From Pseudomonas mendocina (GTDB lineage: Bacteria > Pseudomonadota > Gammaproteobacteria > Pseudomonadales > Pseudomonadaceae): a stretch of 64,000 nucleotides of DNA. Each line of letters opens with the position of its first letter. Positions within the stretch are counted from its first letter, which is position 1. The position numbers and the translations under genes were made by a program. Below the pieces are notes generated by a model. It was not told the DNA's origin, made no database searches, and was given only the letters and a program-made list of their open reading frames with translations. Location: positions 1,674,001-1,738,000 of the forward strand of contig NZ_LR134290.1 in assembly GCF_900636545.1 (NCBI RefSeq), written 5' to 3'. Of this stretch, positions 1,686 through 47,750 are shown in pieces.

Positions 1686-3485
1686 GTGAGTGACCTGAGT
1701 CATATCCGCAATTTTTCCATCATTGCCCACATTGACCACGGCAAGTCCACCCTGGCTGACCGTTTCATCCAGATGTGCGGCGGCCTCGCTGCGCGTGAAA
1801 TGGAGGCTCAGGTACTGGACTCCATGGATCTGGAGCGTGAGCGCGGCATCACCATCAAGGCCCACAGCGTCACCCTTCACTACAAGGCGAAGGACGGCAA
1901 GACCTACCAGCTGAACTTCATCGATACGCCCGGCCACGTGGACTTCACCTACGAAGTCTCACGCTCGCTGGCTGCATGCGAGGGTGCGTTGCTGGTGGTG
2001 GACGCCGGTCAGGGCGTCGAGGCACAGTCGGTCGCCAACTGCTACACCGCCATCGAGCAGGGGCTGGAAGTGATGCCCGTGTTGAACAAGATGGACCTGC
2101 CCCAGGCTGACCCGGACCGCGTCAAGGACGAGATCGAGAAGATCATCGGCATCGACGCTACCGACGCCGTGGCCTGTAGCGCCAAGAGCGGCATGGGCGT
2201 GGACGAGGTGCTTGAGCGTCTGGTGCAAACCATCCCTGCGCCCGAGGGTGAGATCGATGCGCCGCTGCAGGCGCTGATCATCGATTCCTGGTTCGACAAT
2301 TATCTGGGCGTGGTCTCGCTGGTGCGCGTGCGCCAGGGCCGCGTGAAGAAGGGCGACAAGATTCTGGTCAAGTCCACCGGCAAGGTGCACCTGGTCGACA
2401 GCGTCGGTGTATTCACCCCGAAACACACCGCTACTGCTGATCTTAAGGCCGGTGAAGTGGGCTTCATCATCGCCAGCATCAAGGACATTCATGGTGCGCC
2501 GGTTGGTGACACCCTGACCCTGTCCTCGACCCCAGAGGTCGAAGTACTGCCGGGCTTCAAGAAGATCCAGCCGCAGGTATACGCCGGTCTGTTCCCGGTC
2601 AGCTCCGACGATTTCGAGGACTTCCGCGATGCCCTGCAGAAGCTGACCCTCAACGATTCGTCGCTGCAATACGCGCCGGAAAGCTCCGATGCACTGGGCT
2701 TCGGTTTCCGCTGCGGCTTCCTTGGCATGCTCCACATGGAGATCATCCAGGAGCGCCTGGAGCGCGAGTACGATCTGGACCTGATCACCACCGCGCCGAG
2801 CGTAATCTACGAGATCGAGCTCAAGACGGGTGAAACCATCACCGTGGACAACCCGTCCAAGTTGCCGGACGTTTCGGCAGTGGCCGACTTCCGCGAGCCG
2901 ATCGTCACCGCGACCATCCTGGTGCCGCAGGAGCACCTGGGTAACGTCATCACCCTGTGCATCGAGAAGCGTGGCGTGCAGCGCGACATGCAATTCCTCG
3001 GGTCGCAAGTTCAGGTTCGCTACGACCTGCCGATGAACGAAGTGGTGCTGGACTTCTTCGACCGTCTGAAGTCGACCAGCCGTGGTTATGCGTCGCTGGA
3101 CTATCATTTCGACCGCTACCAGTCTGCCAACCTGGTCAAGCTGGACGTACTGATCAACGGCGACAAGGTCGATGCTCTGGCCTTGATCGTTCACCGCGAC
3201 AACGCGGCCTACAAGGGCCGTGCCTTGACCGAGAAGATGAAGGAACTGATTCCTCGGCAGATGTTCGATGTGGCGATCCAGGCAGCCATCGGCGGTCAGA
3301 TCATCGCGCGGACCACTGTCAAGGCGCTCAGAAAGAACGTACTGGCCAAATGTTACGGTGGCGACGTGAGCCGTAAGAAGAAGCTGCTCGAGAAGCAGAA
3401 GGCCGGTAAGAAACGCATGAAGCAGGTTGGTAACGTGGAGATCCCACAGGAAGCCTTCCTCGCTGTGCTCAGGTTGGATAGCTAA
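1686..3485 (+). CDS. lepA: Elongation factor 4 (LepA), translational GTPase
   Basis: 599-aa cytoplasmic/membrane-associated ribosomal GTPase of the EF-G family, implicated in ribosome back-translocation or 30S biogenesis. The start is GTG ([20 protein letters not shown]). The G1 box AHIDHGKS is near residue 13, G3 DTPGH near residue 78, and G4 NKMD near residue 132. EF-G-like domains and the LepA-specific C-terminal domain ([20 protein letters not shown]) follow. Length matches the family. It is first in a long cluster with lepB only 6 nt downstream, the classic lepA-lepB-rnc-era order. Confidence 0.97.
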
Positions 3486-3491
3486 GGCTCT

Positions 3492-4346
3492 ATGTCGATC
3501 AATTTCCCGCTCCTGTTGGTTATCGCGGTCGCCGTCTGCGGCTTCCTGGCCCTGATCGATCTGATTCTGCTGGCTCCGCGCCGCCGTGCGGCGATTGCGG
3601 CGTACCAGGGGCGGGTCGACGATCCTGACGACAGGGTGCTGGAACGTCTGAGCAAGGAGCCCTTGCTGGTCGAGTACGGCAAATCCTTCTTCCCGGTGCT
3701 GGCCATCGTGCTGGTGCTGCGCTCGTTTCTGGTGGAACCGTTCCAGATTCCTTCCGGGTCGATGAAGCCGACCCTGGAAGTGGGCGATTTCATCCTGGTC
3801 AACAAGTTCGCCTACGGCATTCGTCTGCCGGTGATCGACGAGAAGATCATCGAGGTGGATAACCCGCAGCGCGGCGATGTGATGGTGTTCCGCTATCCCA
3901 GCGACCCGACCATCAACTACATCAAGCGCGTGGTGGGACTGCCGGGTGATCGCATCGAGTACACCCAGGGCAAGCGTCTGCTGATCAATGGCGAGCCGGT
4001 GGCCGAAAAGCTGATCGGTGAGGAGCCGGGCAGCCTGGGTGGTGCGATGCTCTACCAGGAGCGTCTGGGCCAGGTCGAACACACCATCCGCAAGGAAATG
4101 ACCCGCATGCGCCGCGAGCCCGGCGGCCAATGGGTGGTGCCGGAAGGGCACTACTTCATGATGGGCGACAACCGTGACAACTCCAACGACAGCCGTTACT
4201 GGCGCGATCGTCATATTCCTCAGGAGCTTTGGGGCATGGTCCCTGACGACCATATCGTCGGCAAGGCCTTCGCCATCTGGATGAGCTGGCCGGAACCCAA
4301 GACCAGCAATCTGCCCAACTTCTCTCGGGTCGGCCTGATTCATTGA
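3492..4346 (+). CDS. lepB: Signal peptidase I (LepB)
   Basis: 284-aa inner-membrane peptidase that removes Sec/Tat signal peptides at the periplasmic face. Two N-terminal hydrophobic segments (about residues 5-27 and 66-80) flank a cytoplasmic loop. The catalytic Ser90 lies in IPSGSMKPTL and the general-base Lys145 in NYIKRVVGLPGDR. The C-terminal signature GDNRDNSNDSRYW is present. It begins 6 nt after lepA, so translational coupling is likely. Conserved signature and synteny make this assignment secure. Confidence 0.97.
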   Translation: MSINFPLLLVIAVAVCGFLALIDLILLAPRRRAAIAAYQGRVDDPDDRVLERLSKEPLLVEYGKSFFPVLAIVLVLRSFLVEPFQIPSGSMKPTLEVGDFILVNKFAYGIRLPVIDEKIIEVDNPQRGDVMVFRYPSDPTINYIKRVVGLPGDRIEYTQGKRLLINGEPVAEKLIGEEPGSLGGAMLYQERLGQVEHTIRKEMTRMRREPGGQWVVPEGHYFMMGDNRDNSNDSRYWRDRHIPQELWGMVPDDHIVGKAFAIWMSWPEPKTSNLPNFSRVGLIH

Positions 4347-4437
4347 GCACTGGCGCGCTGTTCAATACAGCGCGCCAGGCTATAACTAGTCTTGCCGTAT
4401 CGGCATTCCAACAAGACCGAATCTTCTGGGGATATAC

Positions 4438-4815
4438 ATGAAATTCGCGCGCTCGCAGCAGGGGCTTTCCATTCTGGGTTGGCTGGTGGTTCTGGCCGTG
4501 GTGGCATTCTTCGCCAGTACGGCGTTCAAGGTGCTGCCGCATTACATGGACTATATGTCCATGGAGAAAATCATCACGTCGGTGGAAACCGATAAAGCGG
4601 CCGACGTGCGGACCATCAACGAGTTTTACAACCACGTCAGCAAGGGCATGCAGGTCAATAACATTCGTGACCTGAACATGCGCGACGCTCTGCAGGTCAA
4701 GGTGGAGAACAACGAGTTCCAGGTCCACCTCAAGTATGAAAAACGCGAGCCGCTGATCGAGAACCTCGATCTGGTGGTGAATTTCGACAAAGAATTTCGT
4801 GTACGGATGCCGTGA
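4438..4815 (+). CDS. DUF4845 membrane protein
   Basis: 125-aa protein with one N-terminal hydrophobic segment (about residues 12-30, [18 protein letters not shown]) and a soluble, charged C-terminal part predicted outside the cytoplasm. This DUF4845 family lies between lepB and rnc in many pseudomonads and other gammaproteobacteria. Its function is not established. The ATG at 4438 follows GGGGATATAC. Its stop overlaps the rnc start (GTGA), consistent with coupled translation in the lepA-pdxJ cluster. Confidence 0.85.
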
Positions 4816-42885: not shown

Positions 42886-43078
42886 GTACCGGGCGGCGAT
42901 CCGTTCGCGAAGCAGTACGCCGTTGGCGTTTCGCTGGTGCGCCGAGGTGCCTGGTTTGGCATGGCCCGGCGGGCTGTTCGCTGGCGTCCTGAGGCGTTTT
43001 GAACGATCCTCATGCTGCCAGGCTTGGCATGGCCTGGCGGGCTACTCGCTTCGCTCGTGAGGCCACCCTACTGGCTTG
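42886..43078. repeat. One full and one partial tandem copy of the dispersed repeat
   Basis: The first copy runs from ACCGGGCGGCGATCCGTTCG through GCGGGCTGTTCGCTGGCG. The second part (about 43004-43078) repeats the module CATGCTGCCAGGCTTGGCAT and GCGGGCTACTCGCTTCGCTC then GAGGCCACCCTACTGG. No ORF of credible composition covers it. Confidence 0.65.
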
Positions 43079-43140
43079 CAGCGTACTCGGTGAGTTCCCT
43101 TGCACACGAGAATCGGGCAGGCAGGCACTGGAGAAATATC

Positions 43141-43875
43141 ATGCGTTTCTTTCTAGGGGTTCACACCATCGCCTTGGGTGCCATGTTTCTGGCCTGTTCC
43201 GCTACGGCACAGGAGTGGATCAATATCGATATCTGGGGCAACGGTATTCTGGGCCAGTCGGCGCTTCGGCATGCGCAGGAAGCGACCACGCAGGGTACCG
43301 ACGAAGCCGATTCTGATGGGCCTGGAACTTCTGGCCAGGCGCGCTCGGGAGACGCTGCCGCACTGTTCTTTGAGCGCTCAAGCGATTTGACCAGCCAGAT
43401 CGAAGAGGGCGTCGCACAACGGCTGTCCGGCATGGTTTCGGTTCGATTCCAGATGGAGGATCCGTCTTACCTGGTGAGAACGGCAGGCACCCGCGCCATT
43501 TACCGTCAGGAGCTGGAAAAGCGTGGCCTGCCGGAGGATTCTCTCACTGGGGCTACGGCGCTGTTCCTGGCCGTCGGCTGGGAACTCGCCAATGGGCGCT
43601 CGCTTTCGCAAGCACAAACGGCAGCCATTTTCCGGCAGACCGCCAGTGGGCTACAGAGCTCTCCCCTGGCTCGTCAGAGTGACGCTGAGCGACAGCAGGA
43701 ATCCGAGATGCGCCTGATAATAACTGCGCTATGGCTTGAGGAGGCGCGCGTGCGCGCATCGTCATCTCGGCCGACACAGGATCTGGCTGATGCGGTGTGG
43801 CGTGACCTGAAGGCGATCACCGGCAATGACATGCGTGCCTATGCAGTGACCGCGAACGGTTTCACCGAGCGTTGA
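43141..43875 (+). CDS. Secreted protein of unknown function
   Basis: 244-aa protein with a Sec signal (MRFFLGVHTIALGAMFLACS, cleavage near ATAQ). A low-complexity Gly/Asp/Ser segment at about residues 48-75 leads into a helical domain (about residues 80-240) with VSVRFQMEDPSYL and ALFLAVGWELANGRSLSQAQ. It may belong to a DUF6683-like group, but I am not certain. ATG at 43141 follows GGAG. Flanked on both sides by dispersed repeats, so it looks accessory. Base composition is somewhat lower in GC than the core genes. Confidence 0.6.
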   Translation: MRFFLGVHTIALGAMFLACSATAQEWINIDIWGNGILGQSALRHAQEATTQGTDEADSDGPGTSGQARSGDAAALFFERSSDLTSQIEEGVAQRLSGMVSVRFQMEDPSYLVRTAGTRAIYRQELEKRGLPEDSLTGATALFLAVGWELANGRSLSQAQTAAIFRQTASGLQSSPLARQSDAERQQESEMRLIITALWLEEARVRASSSRPTQDLADAVWRDLKAITGNDMRAYAVTANGFTER

Positions 43876-44089: not shown

Positions 44090-45352
44090 TTAGCCTCGAT
44101 GTGAGGCCTCGACGGCCGTGGCCCATGCTTTCAAGGTGTCTCGAGCGGCCAGGGCAATTTCCTTGTCGCTGTGGCCGGCGAATTCACGCTCCACCGCATC
44201 CGCCGCGATGAGCCCGGCTATGGTTGGCTTGCCGAGTGCATCGGTCAGATCCAGCCATTCGACCCAGCTTGCAGGCGTGTCGTACCAACGCAGATAGCCT
44301 GTCGGCGAACGTGGCCACCAGCGCTGGTCGAACTGCAGCACGACCTTCTCGAGTTTGCCCATACCCAGGTGGGCCAGGGCGTCCTGTTGGGCCGGCGGAA
44401 GTTCGGGGAGGAAGCACAGGGTCTTGAGTACGCCGAGCGGCACGGTGCAGATGCAGAAGTCACCGCGCTCCTCATTGATGCGCAGCTCACTGTTCTGCCA
44501 GTCGATCCGAGTGACGGGCTGGCCTAGGCGGATGTCGAGGCCGGAGGCCAGGTGCTCGATGATCTGGCTGTAGCCGCCGGGTAGAAAGCGATCATCGTTA
44601 CCGACACCTTCTTCGTCGAGGGAGTCCACCGAAAGCTCTGCAAGCGGCAGGCAGGCCTCGATAATCAGGTTGCCGTCGATCGCATAACGTGTTGCCCTGG
44701 CGTGGGCCGGGTCCAGGCTGGCCAAGTAGCACCCGATGCCTTCGCTCAGCGGGCGGCTGCGGTCGATACCCTGGCGCAACGCCTGCCAGGCTTCATTGAT
44801 ACCGTGAACCGGCCCGTCGCTGGCAGCCGACAACGGTTGACTGAAGTCGGTCTCCACCATGTTCATCCCGAGATGTTCCGCTTCGCGGGCCAAGGCATTG
44901 GCCGAGAATTGCTGCAACCAAGCTGCGCCGACGTCTACGGTCACCGAGCCCAGTTGCAGGCTGTGGGTGCGGCCGCCAATGCGTTCCCGCGCTTCGATCA
45001 CGACGCAGTCGACGCCGCTGGCTCGCAAGTGGCGGGCGGCTCCTAGGCCGGCACAGCCCGCGCCTATGACAATCACTCGTCGGGCTCCGGCCTGGACGGC
45101 GAGGCGGGCCGCGCGAATACCGTCGTCCCAGGCACCGTGGGTCATGGCTGGCGCCTCGGGATTGCAGGCTTCGCCAGCGATGACAAGCCGCCCGTCCAGG
45201 CACTCGCCCAGTACACCCCGATGTTCCGGCCGGCCGCCGGGCAGCAAGGTGCTGTATGCACCCAGGCTGTAGGCATCTTCACTCCAGTGGGTAACGTGCC
45301 AGGCGGTGGGGTGGTAGATGGAAGACTCCATCTCAACACTCGACTTGTTCAT
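44090..45352 (-). CDS. Flavin amine-oxidase-like protein with apparently permuted domain order
   Basis: 420-aa FAD protein. The start at 45352 (MNKSSVEMESS) follows AAGAAGG. In normal monoamine oxidases the FAD Rossmann motif is near the N-terminus and the segment W-x-D-x-Y-x-x-G-A-Y-S...AGEA...HGA is C-terminal. Here THWSEDAYSLGAYSTLLPGG and GRLVIAGEACNPEAPAMTHG occupy residues 21-74, and the Rossmann motif VIVIGAGCAGLGAARHL follows at 93-109 with ARERIGGRTHS. The chain ends at AARDTLKAWATAV, just where that segment would normally follow. All parts seem present once, so this may be a working circular permutant. Substrate unknown. Confidence 0.8.
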   Translation of the reverse strand: MNKSSVEMESSIYHPTAWHVTHWSEDAYSLGAYSTLLPGGRPEHRGVLGECLDGRLVIAGEACNPEAPAMTHGAWDDGIRAARLAVQAGARRVIVIGAGCAGLGAARHLRASGVDCVVIEARERIGGRTHSLQLGSVTVDVGAAWLQQFSANALAREAEHLGMNMVETDFSQPLSAASDGPVHGINEAWQALRQGIDRSRPLSEGIGCYLASLDPAHARATRYAIDGNLIIEACLPLAELSVDSLDEEGVGNDDRFLPGGYSQIIEHLASGLDIRLGQPVTRIDWQNSELRINEERGDFCICTVPLGVLKTLCFLPELPPAQQDALAHLGMGKLEKVVLQFDQRWWPRSPTGYLRWYDTPASWVEWLDLTDALGKPTIAGLIAADAVEREFAGHSDKEIALAARDTLKAWATAVEASHRG

Positions 45353-45594
45353 GAACGTAACCTTCTTCCGTTGACTCGTTTTCAATTGGGAGCCGTCCTG
45401 GCGCCAGGTGAGCGGCGGCACTTCGCCGTCGTCATGATCGATAGTCTGCTTCCTCAGAAGCAGGTCACCATGCTGATGGTCTCGAGCGCCTCATGCGGGC
45501 CTATGTCTATCTTTATTTCCTGACGGTAAACGGCCGTTGACAAGGGGCGCAATAGCTCGGAAACAGCGAGGTTCTCCGGTCAATTGCCGCCCAC

Positions 45595-46488
45595 TCACAT
45601 CCGGTGATGTTCCACCAGGAAATCCACAAACACCCGCACCCGCGCCGGCATCGCTGAGCCGCCGACGAACACCGCATGAATCGGTTCCCTGTCGCCGGGG
45701 TTGAAGGCTTGCAGCAGCGGCACCAGATCACCGCGCTGGATGTCCTCGGCCACGGTGAACTCGCCGATGCGCGCGATGCCGGCGCCAACACGGGCGAATT
45801 GCGCCAGCGCCTCGCCGCTGCTGCATTCGATATTCCCGCAGACCTTGAGCGAGAACGCCTGGCCATCGCGGATGAATGGCCAGTTGGGTTCGGCACGGCG
45901 GAAGTTGAAGCGCAGGCAGTTGTGCTGCAGCAGGTCTTCCGGCTGCTGCGGTGTGCCATGGCGCTCTAGGTAATCGGGGGAGGCCACCACCACCTGGCCG
46001 GTTTCGCCGACTTTTCGTGCGGTCAACGGGCTGTCCGGCAGATGGCCGAAGCGCACGGCCACGTCCGCCTGGCCGCCGAGAATGTCGACCACTTCGTCGC
46101 CCAGGCTGAGGTCAACGGTGATGTTCGGGTAACGCGCGCTGAAGGCCGCCACCAGCGGCACGATGGTCATTCGGCCATGGCCGAGCGCAGCGCTGACGCG
46201 CAAGCGCCCCCGTGGCACGCCCTGATCGGCGATAGCTTCTTCGACTTCCGCCATATCGGCAAGGATGCGCCGCGCGCCGCGCAGGTACGCCTCGCCCTCG
46301 GCGGTGAAGGTGATCGCGCGGGTGGTGCGCAGCAGCAGACGGGTGCCAAGGCGCTGCTCGGTGCGCGCGATGATGCGGCTGACTGCCGAAGGTGTCAGCC
46401 CTAGTACGCGCGCGGCGGCCGATAGGCTGCCTTGCTCCGCCACGCTGGCGAAAACGAGCATTTCGCCTGATCGGCCGTTGAAGTCCAT
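45595..46488 (-). CDS. LysR-family transcriptional regulator
   Basis: 297-aa regulator. The start at 46488 (MDFNGRSGEMLVFASVAEQG) is the usual position for the family; the frame extends 13 codons upstream. The helix-turn-helix SLSAAARVLGLTPSAVSRII is at about residues 21-40, followed by RTTRAITFTAEG and a periplasmic-binding-like effector domain. It belongs to the large subgroup that controls a divergent transporter gene; the MFS gene starts 95 nt away on the other strand. Confidence 0.92.
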   Translation of the reverse strand: MDFNGRSGEMLVFASVAEQGSLSAAARVLGLTPSAVSRIIARTEQRLGTRLLLRTTRAITFTAEGEAYLRGARRILADMAEVEEAIADQGVPRGRLRVSAALGHGRMTIVPLVAAFSARYPNITVDLSLGDEVVDILGGQADVAVRFGHLPDSPLTARKVGETGQVVVASPDYLERHGTPQQPEDLLQHNCLRFNFRRAEPNWPFIRDGQAFSLKVCGNIECSSGEALAQFARVGAGIARIGEFTVAEDIQRGDLVPLLQAFNPGDREPIHAVFVGGSAMPARVRVFVDFLVEHHRM

Positions 46489-46583
46489 TTGTGCTCCGTA
46501 AGCAAAGGTGTTTGCCAGAAATGCCATCTACCGCCGCCAAGGTTTGGATCCTAGCATTCGCGGCATAGATGAGGAGACTTCCC

Positions 46584-47750
46584 ATGCGTATCAATCCACC
46601 ACTCGTTGCACTCGCCATCGGTGCCTTTGGCATCGGTGTCACCGAGTTCGCCCCCATGGGCATGTTGCCGGGCATCGCCAGCGATCTCGGCGTTTCCATT
46701 CCCGCTGCCGGCCTGCTGGTCAGCGCCTACGCCTTGGGCGTGCTGCTCGGCGCGCCACTGATGACCCTGACCACCGGCAAGATTCCCCGGCGCTACCTGC
46801 TGATCGGGCTGATGGCCATCTTCACCCTGGGCAACCTGATGTCGGCCCTGGCCACCGACTACTACAGCCTGCTGATCGCGCGGGTGGTGACCTCGTTGAA
46901 CCACGGCGCCTTCTTCGGCGTTGGTTCCATCGTCGCCGCCAGTGTGGTCGCGCCGGACAAACGCGCCGGGGCGGTGGCGGCGATGTTCATGGGTCTGACA
47001 TTGGCGACCATTGGCGGCGTGCCGTTGGCGACCTGGTTCGGTGAGGTGTTCGGCTGGCGTACGGCTTTTGCGGGCATTACCGGCCTGGGCGTATTGGCCA
47101 TGCTCGCGCTGTGGTTCGCGCTGCCCAACGTGCCGCTGCCGAAGAGCGACGGCGTGCTGGCGGAAATCCGCGTGCTGGGCCGTGGCCCGGTGCTGGCGGC
47201 CCTGGCCCTGACCGTGATCGGCTCCAGCGCGATGTTCACCGTGTTCACCTATATCGCACCGATCCTCAGCAGCGAGACCCAGGCGTCCACCGCCTTCATC
47301 ACCGCCATGCTGGTGCTGTACGGCATCGGCCTGACGCTGGGCAACGTGTGGGGTGGCAAGGCGGCGGATCGCTCCGTCGATCGCACCCTGATCGTCTCGC
47401 TGAGTGCGCTGATCCTGGTCTTGCTCGCCTTCACCGTGCTGATGCGTTGGCCACTACCGGCCGCGGTGGCCATCCTGATCTGGGGCATCGCCAGCTTCGC
47501 CATCGTGCCGCCGTTACAGATGCGCGTGATGGAAGCCGCCAAGGCCGCACCCAACCTGGCCTCGGCGGTGAATATCGGCGCGTTCAACCTCGGTAACGCG
47601 ATTGGCGCGGCACTGGGTGGAGCGGTGATCAAGGCGGGGCTGGGCTACCCGGCGATCTCCTTGGCCGGCGCTGCGATGGCCGGGCTGGGGCTGCTGATGG
47701 TGCTAGGGTTTGTCTGGCGCTCCAGGGCGGTGACGGCTGCGGTGGCCTGA
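46584..47750 (+). CDS. MFS efflux transporter (AraJ/YdhP-like)
   Basis: 388-aa, about twelve-helix transporter of the DHA1 drug:H+ antiporter type. It begins INPPLVALAIGAFGIGVTEF, and motif A-like GAPLMTLTTGKIPRRYLLI is at about residues 57-75 with RVVTSLNHGAFFGVGS near residue 100. The ATG follows GAGGAGAC. Under probable control of the divergent LysR protein. Substrate unknown; relatives export arabinose, purines or drugs. Confidence 0.92.
   Translation: MRINPPLVALAIGAFGIGVTEFAPMGMLPGIASDLGVSIPAAGLLVSAYALGVLLGAPLMTLTTGKIPRRYLLIGLMAIFTLGNLMSALATDYYSLLIARVVTSLNHGAFFGVGSIVAASVVAPDKRAGAVAAMFMGLTLATIGGVPLATWFGEVFGWRTAFAGITGLGVLAMLALWFALPNVPLPKSDGVLAEIRVLGRGPVLAALALTVIGSSAMFTVFTYIAPILSSETQASTAFITAMLVLYGIGLTLGNVWGGKAADRSVDRTLIVSLSALILVLLAFTVLMRWPLPAAVAILIWGIASFAIVPPLQMRVMEAAKAAPNLASAVNIGAFNLGNAIGAALGGAVIKAGLGYPAISLAGAAMAGLGLLMVLGFVWRSRAVTAAVA

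Follow-up and report, generated by a model that had tools for sequence, protein, structure and literature searches.

On the minus strand of a 64,000-nucleotide stretch of the Pseudomonas mendocina genome (contig NZ_LR134290.1, positions 1,674,001–1,738,000; here the window), one gene encodes an enzyme of the flavin amine oxidase type whose closing segment has moved to the front of the chain. Monoamine oxidases (MAO), LSD1, and polyamine oxidases, all heavily studied, have the Rossmann motif for flavin adenine dinucleotide (FAD) first and a flavin-contacting tail last. Here the tail comes first (Table 1). The open reading frame (ORF) 44090–45352 (−) has no internal stop codon; in its protein, AYS lies at residues 32–34, AGEA at 59–62, and HGA at 72–74, followed by the Rossmann sequence VIVIGAGCAGLGAARHL at residues 93–109. 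Both FAD signatures, GxGxxG and GGR, are present. A preliminary description had read from the letters this order of motifs with their coordinates, a ribosome site at the start, and a single occurrence of each part. All three readings hold, each test part scoring above 0 bits at one place in the window only.

Table 1. The permuted gene and its parts, in window coordinates
Feature	Position	Strand	Remarks
Permuted flavin amine oxidase gene, 420 amino acids (aa)	44090..45352	−	ATG start at 45352; stop included
Ribosome-binding-site-like AGAAGG	45361..45366	−	8 nt upstream of ATG; sequence reading
Residues 12–88, moved segment (VTHW...GAYS...AGEA...HGA...helix)	45089..45319	−	Ends ordinary amine oxidases, N-terminal here; LSD2, FMS1, MAO A/B, and Pfam matches
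Linker, residues 89–91, from moved helix to Rossmann strand 1	45080..45088	−	Secondary structure of the model
Residues 92–128, FAD Rossmann GxGxxG through GGR	44969..45079	−	Begins ordinary amine oxidases; Pfam and conservation
K336 codon	44345..44347	−	Aligned with LSD2 K661; K in 33/33 permutants and 63/74 ordinary rows
Residues 396–419, final helix up to the cut point	44096..44167	−	Predicted model and superposition

A swapped order against Pfam and solved structures

PF01593 matches the protein at 182.2 bits (cut-off 19.8) in three stretches. In the Pfam search of the window's own genome, these cover, in chain order, positions 371–441, 2–102, and 190–369 of the 443-position model; all nine members of set A4 match the same family. 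The usual linear order, with the Rossmann part first and AGE..HGA last, is typical for PF01593 but lies outside the Pfam cut-off, and it is not the order found here. Instead, every part occurs once, in cyclically swapped order, as in a circular permutant.

Solved structures give the same picture. Against human LSD2, residues 91–166, 252–352, and 9–83 match chain positions 337–413, 524–631, and 697–771, and a profile of ten permutants strengthens the swap signal (body 161.0 bits on 335–673, front piece 51.2 bits on 698–771). Taken alone, the front piece matches the C-terminal ends of LSD2 (chain 702–771, E 2.5e-7) and FMS1 (437–500, E 5.6e-6), and more weakly MAO A 387–458 (2bxr) and MAO B 380–450 (E 0.017–0.11). 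A six-frame search of the entire window led us to reject a second copy of the moved segment: the gene itself scores 117.1 bits, the sole score above 0, and the only other match −0.7 bits. The swapped order is thereby confirmed far beyond chance.

The cut is continuous in ordinary numbering. With LSD2 entry numbering taken as chain index + 46, an offset derived from alignment and superposition, model residue 415, the last one superposed, falls on LSD2 745, and residue 9 corresponds to chain index 697 (roughly 743 in entry numbering). At the other joint, the moved helix of the predicted model ends at residue 87 and the Rossmann strand starts at 92. These matches bear out two further statements of the preliminary description, that the order is opposite to that of ordinary amine oxidases and that the chain stops where its front segment would belong.

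Relatives that share the order

Three short profiles were made, for the moved segment (N), the Rossmann part (R), and a later part of the body (C), and their order was read in fetched frames; frames matching only R and C (L082, L098) stand outside the classes. All three parts occur in 108 distinct frames, 33 permuted and 75 ordinary, a ratio that is not a prevalence because the loci were chosen as best matches to permuted profiles. A gammaproteobacterial group accounts for 19 permutants (16 Pseudomonadaceae and three from the genus of G032), a second class of the phylum (G795, G1178), probably Alphaproteobacteria, for 13, and G029 for one, L004. The 33 come from many assemblies and genera, at 30–88% identity to the window protein where computed, and answer the protein search that the preliminary description had proposed. 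The swap is common to relatives in several bacterial families, which marks it as a stable natural rearrangement and not an assembly error.

Across the genomes surveyed, the permuted form is patchy and uncommon. The genus has 11 matching genomes out of 298 at E 1e-40: eight hold permuted genes and two ordinary ones (L056, L057), G673 being left out of the order reading. Of 38 relatives, 34 match at E 1e-3, four with permuted genes (G000, G001, G029, G032); the remaining matches among those listed are short and mostly of the Rossmann part. An even draw across the class gives 8 matches in 369 genomes, the window's own genome being the sole permutant and the other seven ordinary, so the form is rare there. 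The phylum gives 23 matches in 398 (five permuted: G000, G728, G806, G795, and G971; 18 ordinary). Matching counts are 27/289 in the class of G795 (permuted: G795 and G1178), 27/292 in its order (nine permuted), 3/6 in the family of G032 (all permuted), 6/17 in that of G1178 (four permuted), and 1/22 in that of G029 (permuted). Among plasmids, tblastn matched 34 records, and none of the 20 listed aligns to 80% of the query at a single site.

Scanning genome contigs with six peptide patterns returned ten loci, nine of them in Pseudomonas at 56–86% identity over nearly the whole length. The tenth (L040, about 3898–4545), in an Actinomycetes metagenome-assembled genome, is a broken copy with frame changes and missing parts that keeps the N-R-C order; unless the contig is misbinned, it suggests that the family occurs outside the phylum. 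One Pseudomonas genome carries two permuted paralogues (G001:C2:245063-246286, 86%; G001:C7:45831-47081, 76% to the window protein).

The two main groups of permutants differ in form. The twin-arginine motif marks leaders of the twin-arginine translocation (Tat) type, and Tat-like leaders, recognized by eye and not by a predictor, precede the moved segment in the 13 second-class permutants (L070, L075, L086, L106–L108, L118, L119, L129, L130, L132, L133, L138). Their R-to-C spacing is about 40 residues, against about 70 in the Pseudomonas ones. The nearest ordinary relatives in the tree are bacterial amine oxidases of order R-C-N (e.g., L056, L042, L122, L123), several of which, such as L056 and L042, also have Tat-like leaders by eye. 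Ordinary-order genes occur on IMG/VR contigs as well (L146–L151, L157; five contigs of 66–79 kb); in L147, L148, and L151, VPGAY replaces the HGA of the others.

Selection, fold, and the proposed enzyme

The product is very probably a bacterial flavin amine oxidase that has been circularly permuted in nature, with LSD2/LSD1, MAO, and polyamine oxidase as its nearest solved structures. The new chain ends would stem from a break in the loop that leads from the final helix of the substrate domain into the first strand of the closing, FAD-contacting segment, and a linker of a few residues would tie that segment to Rossmann strand 1; both swapped parts are expected to pack as they do in the ordinary enzyme. 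We propose an FAD-dependent amine oxidase, presumably cytosolic, in which Lys336 would assist the oxidation of an amine, with H2O2 released.

Conserved positions fit this proposal. Six positions in the moved segment (W23, G31, A59, G60, E61, A74) and eight in the body (G97, G99, G102, E120, G126, G127, R128, K336) are invariant in all 33 permutants and largely so in 74 ordinary rows. The alignment pairs K336 with chain index 615 of LSD2 (entry residue 661), which we take to be the position of the catalytic lysine. Position 32 is Ala in 17 and Gly in 2 of 19 gammaproteobacterial rows, and Ser in all 13 second-class rows. By equal-length match spans, in place of a printed alignment, Ala32 corresponds to MAO A 406/MAO B 397, presumably the flavin-linked Cys; the protein thus lacks the cysteine of a covalent-FAD monoamine oxidase, and FAD is probably held without a covalent bond. 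The same spans place Met70 on MAO A 444/MAO B 435, which we assume to be the second MAO cage tyrosine, with Thr there in LSD-type enzymes.

Purifying selection acts on both parts, and the fold of the body agrees with the family. Nei-Gojobori ratios of nonsynonymous to synonymous divergence (dN/dS) against nine relatives are 0.106–0.243 for the whole gene, 0.08–0.34 for the moved segment, and 0.10–0.22 for the body. These ratios are rough in six of the nine pairs, where dS exceeds 1, a first point that weighs against our reading; the three pairs with dS below 1 give 0.12–0.17. The second predicted model gives the body an amine-oxidase fold with confidence, its closest folds being LSD, MAO, and polyamine oxidases. 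Further points on the same adverse side concern structure and context. The first AF2 model, built on 10 rows, reached a predicted local distance difference test (pLDDT) of 58.9 and a template modeling (TM) score of 0.29 to the best Protein Data Bank (PDB) rows, and fold searches with it were not used as fold evidence. The input of the second model included split pieces of ordinary relatives, so how the two parts are packed against each other depends on 10 permuted rows and the network's learned knowledge. Foldseek, which keeps chain order, yields a TM score of 0.65–0.67 of the query for LSD2 with residues 1–86 outside the superposition; the moved segment would occupy the ordinary C-terminal position. 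Finally, neighbors differ among the seven relatives listed, so that context gives no substrate.

Two other accounts of the locus were weighed. The swap could be a rearrangement introduced by sequencing or assembly, or the end of one amine oxidase gene might by chance have fused with the start of another; tandem amine oxidase genes do exist (L084, below), so a fusion could give this picture. The same order in 33 distinct frames, the selection on both parts, and the single contig of the window genome make such an origin extremely improbable and refute an assembly artefact or a pseudogene; the assembly rearrangement that the preliminary description had named as its own counterargument is excluded by the order conserved across relatives. 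The protein might instead be conserved yet no longer an oxidase, serving in binding or regulation. Met at position 70 in 19/19 of the gammaproteobacterial group speaks for this, whereas Lys336 and the FAD-motif residues listed above are kept in every permutant, and Thr, the residue of LSD-type enzymes at the cage position, stands there in 13/13 second-class permutants; we judge a loss of oxidase function improbable.

Neighborhoods of seven relatives and the window were read with a rough ORF caller, ten neighbors being scanned. None was conserved across this set: neighbors include a glutathione-S-transferase (GST)-like gene in L038, a short-chain dehydrogenase/reductase (SDR) in L034, a zinc alcohol dehydrogenase in L031, and LysR and MFS genes in the window. 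The LysR/MFS pair (window 45595–47750) also lies beside the permutant in P. composti L031 (5357–7509), with the permutant on the pair's other side. In P. veronii, the GST-like gene (L038:3402-4022) and the beginning of the permuted gene overlap, which suggests an operon. Adjoining the permutant is a gene (window 43012–43875) that matches DUF6683 weakly, at 26.2 bits against a cut-off of 23.6. NCBIfam gave no name to the six proteins searched; all the matches shown fell short of the cut-off, and most of them covered the Rossmann part.

Origins and meaning of the permutation

Trees were built on rows put back into ordinary order, the 108 rows being reduced to 107 (L155 out, weak N score), 88 (rows more than 80% identical out), and 84 (L004, L101, L149, and L046 out). 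Permuted rows fall into a Pseudomonas/G032 clade, a second-class clade, and L004 on a long branch. Starred branches force three changes in one tree and two in three others; without L004, L101, L149, and L046, two changes are needed, and the same holds on the body alone. We lean, by a modest degree of belief, toward at least two, and perhaps three, separate permutations of flavin amine oxidases (in the Pseudomonas group, L004, and the Tat-leader second-class group), all in the same loop.

A single ancient permutation inherited by the gammaproteobacterial and second-class groups, with the tree misplacing them, is possible, though on balance doubtful. The cut region looks alike by eye in all 33 permutants, L004's branch is long, and approximately unbiased tests against a single permuted clade reject it modestly (p 0.036, 0.035, 0.029, and 0.031) on overlapping data. 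Yet bootstrapping, with 200 replicates for each of the four trees, gives a single origin 0% of the time, besides the forced changes, and L070, L075, and L086 are 39–47% identical to their nearest ordinary rows vs. 31–33% to the window protein, whose own nearest ordinary rows (L122, L123) stand at 35% after re-ordering.

Duplication is described as the earliest proposed model for permutation in PMC3320104. In L084, two ordinary-order amine oxidase genes stand in tandem (475–1722 and 1762–3006), with 45 bases from the stop of one to the ATG of the next. They share 244 of 414 residues (59%), and the permuted profile spans the end of the upstream gene and the body of the downstream one. Duplication precursors thus exist, though in a distant branch, and the pair may serve as a model for a permutation precursor. 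Since simply trimming a tandem pair would not alone preserve a leader, the second-class events probably needed an internal deletion or insertion. The preliminary description had proposed a functional permutant made by tandem duplication and trimming. A conserved permutation with a predicted amine-oxidase fold is well supported by the shared order, the purifying selection, and the confident model; its duplication origin is hypothetical. None of the 108 frames has the N segment at both ends.

Compared with the oxidase domains of LSD2/KDM1B and LSD1/KDM1A (PDB 4gu0, 4fwe, 2ejr), the window protein is swapped, bacterial, and 420 aa long, and among 20 Pfam families up to E 10 it has no match to their extra domains, including SWIRM. 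It shares the PF01593 parts, FAD Rossmann, GGR, and AGE segment with MAO A/B, FMS1, and maize PAO, and differs from them in order and from MAO in Ala32 and Met70. The kind of rearrangement, with a fold expected to be preserved, is that of the natural permutants saposin/swaposin, DNA methyltransferases, and transhydrogenases; those have other folds, and the passages of that source name no flavin enzyme, the term FAD being absent from its text (PMC3320104). Titles and abstract openings in the open-licence PMC literature yielded no permuted amine oxidase, a weak absence. Neither the family nor its fold is new; the arrangement of the parts is, as far as the sources searched go.

A conserved natural permutant would mean that the amine oxidase fold does not need its usual order, and it offers protein engineers a cut point kept in nature. 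Annotation by N-terminal motif or by a single Pfam hit misdescribes such genes. Families holding both permuted and ordinary forms allow a direct comparison to test how circular permutations arise, and if the order did arise repeatedly, the cut joint would be a natural hot spot of permutation in a much-studied drug-target fold.
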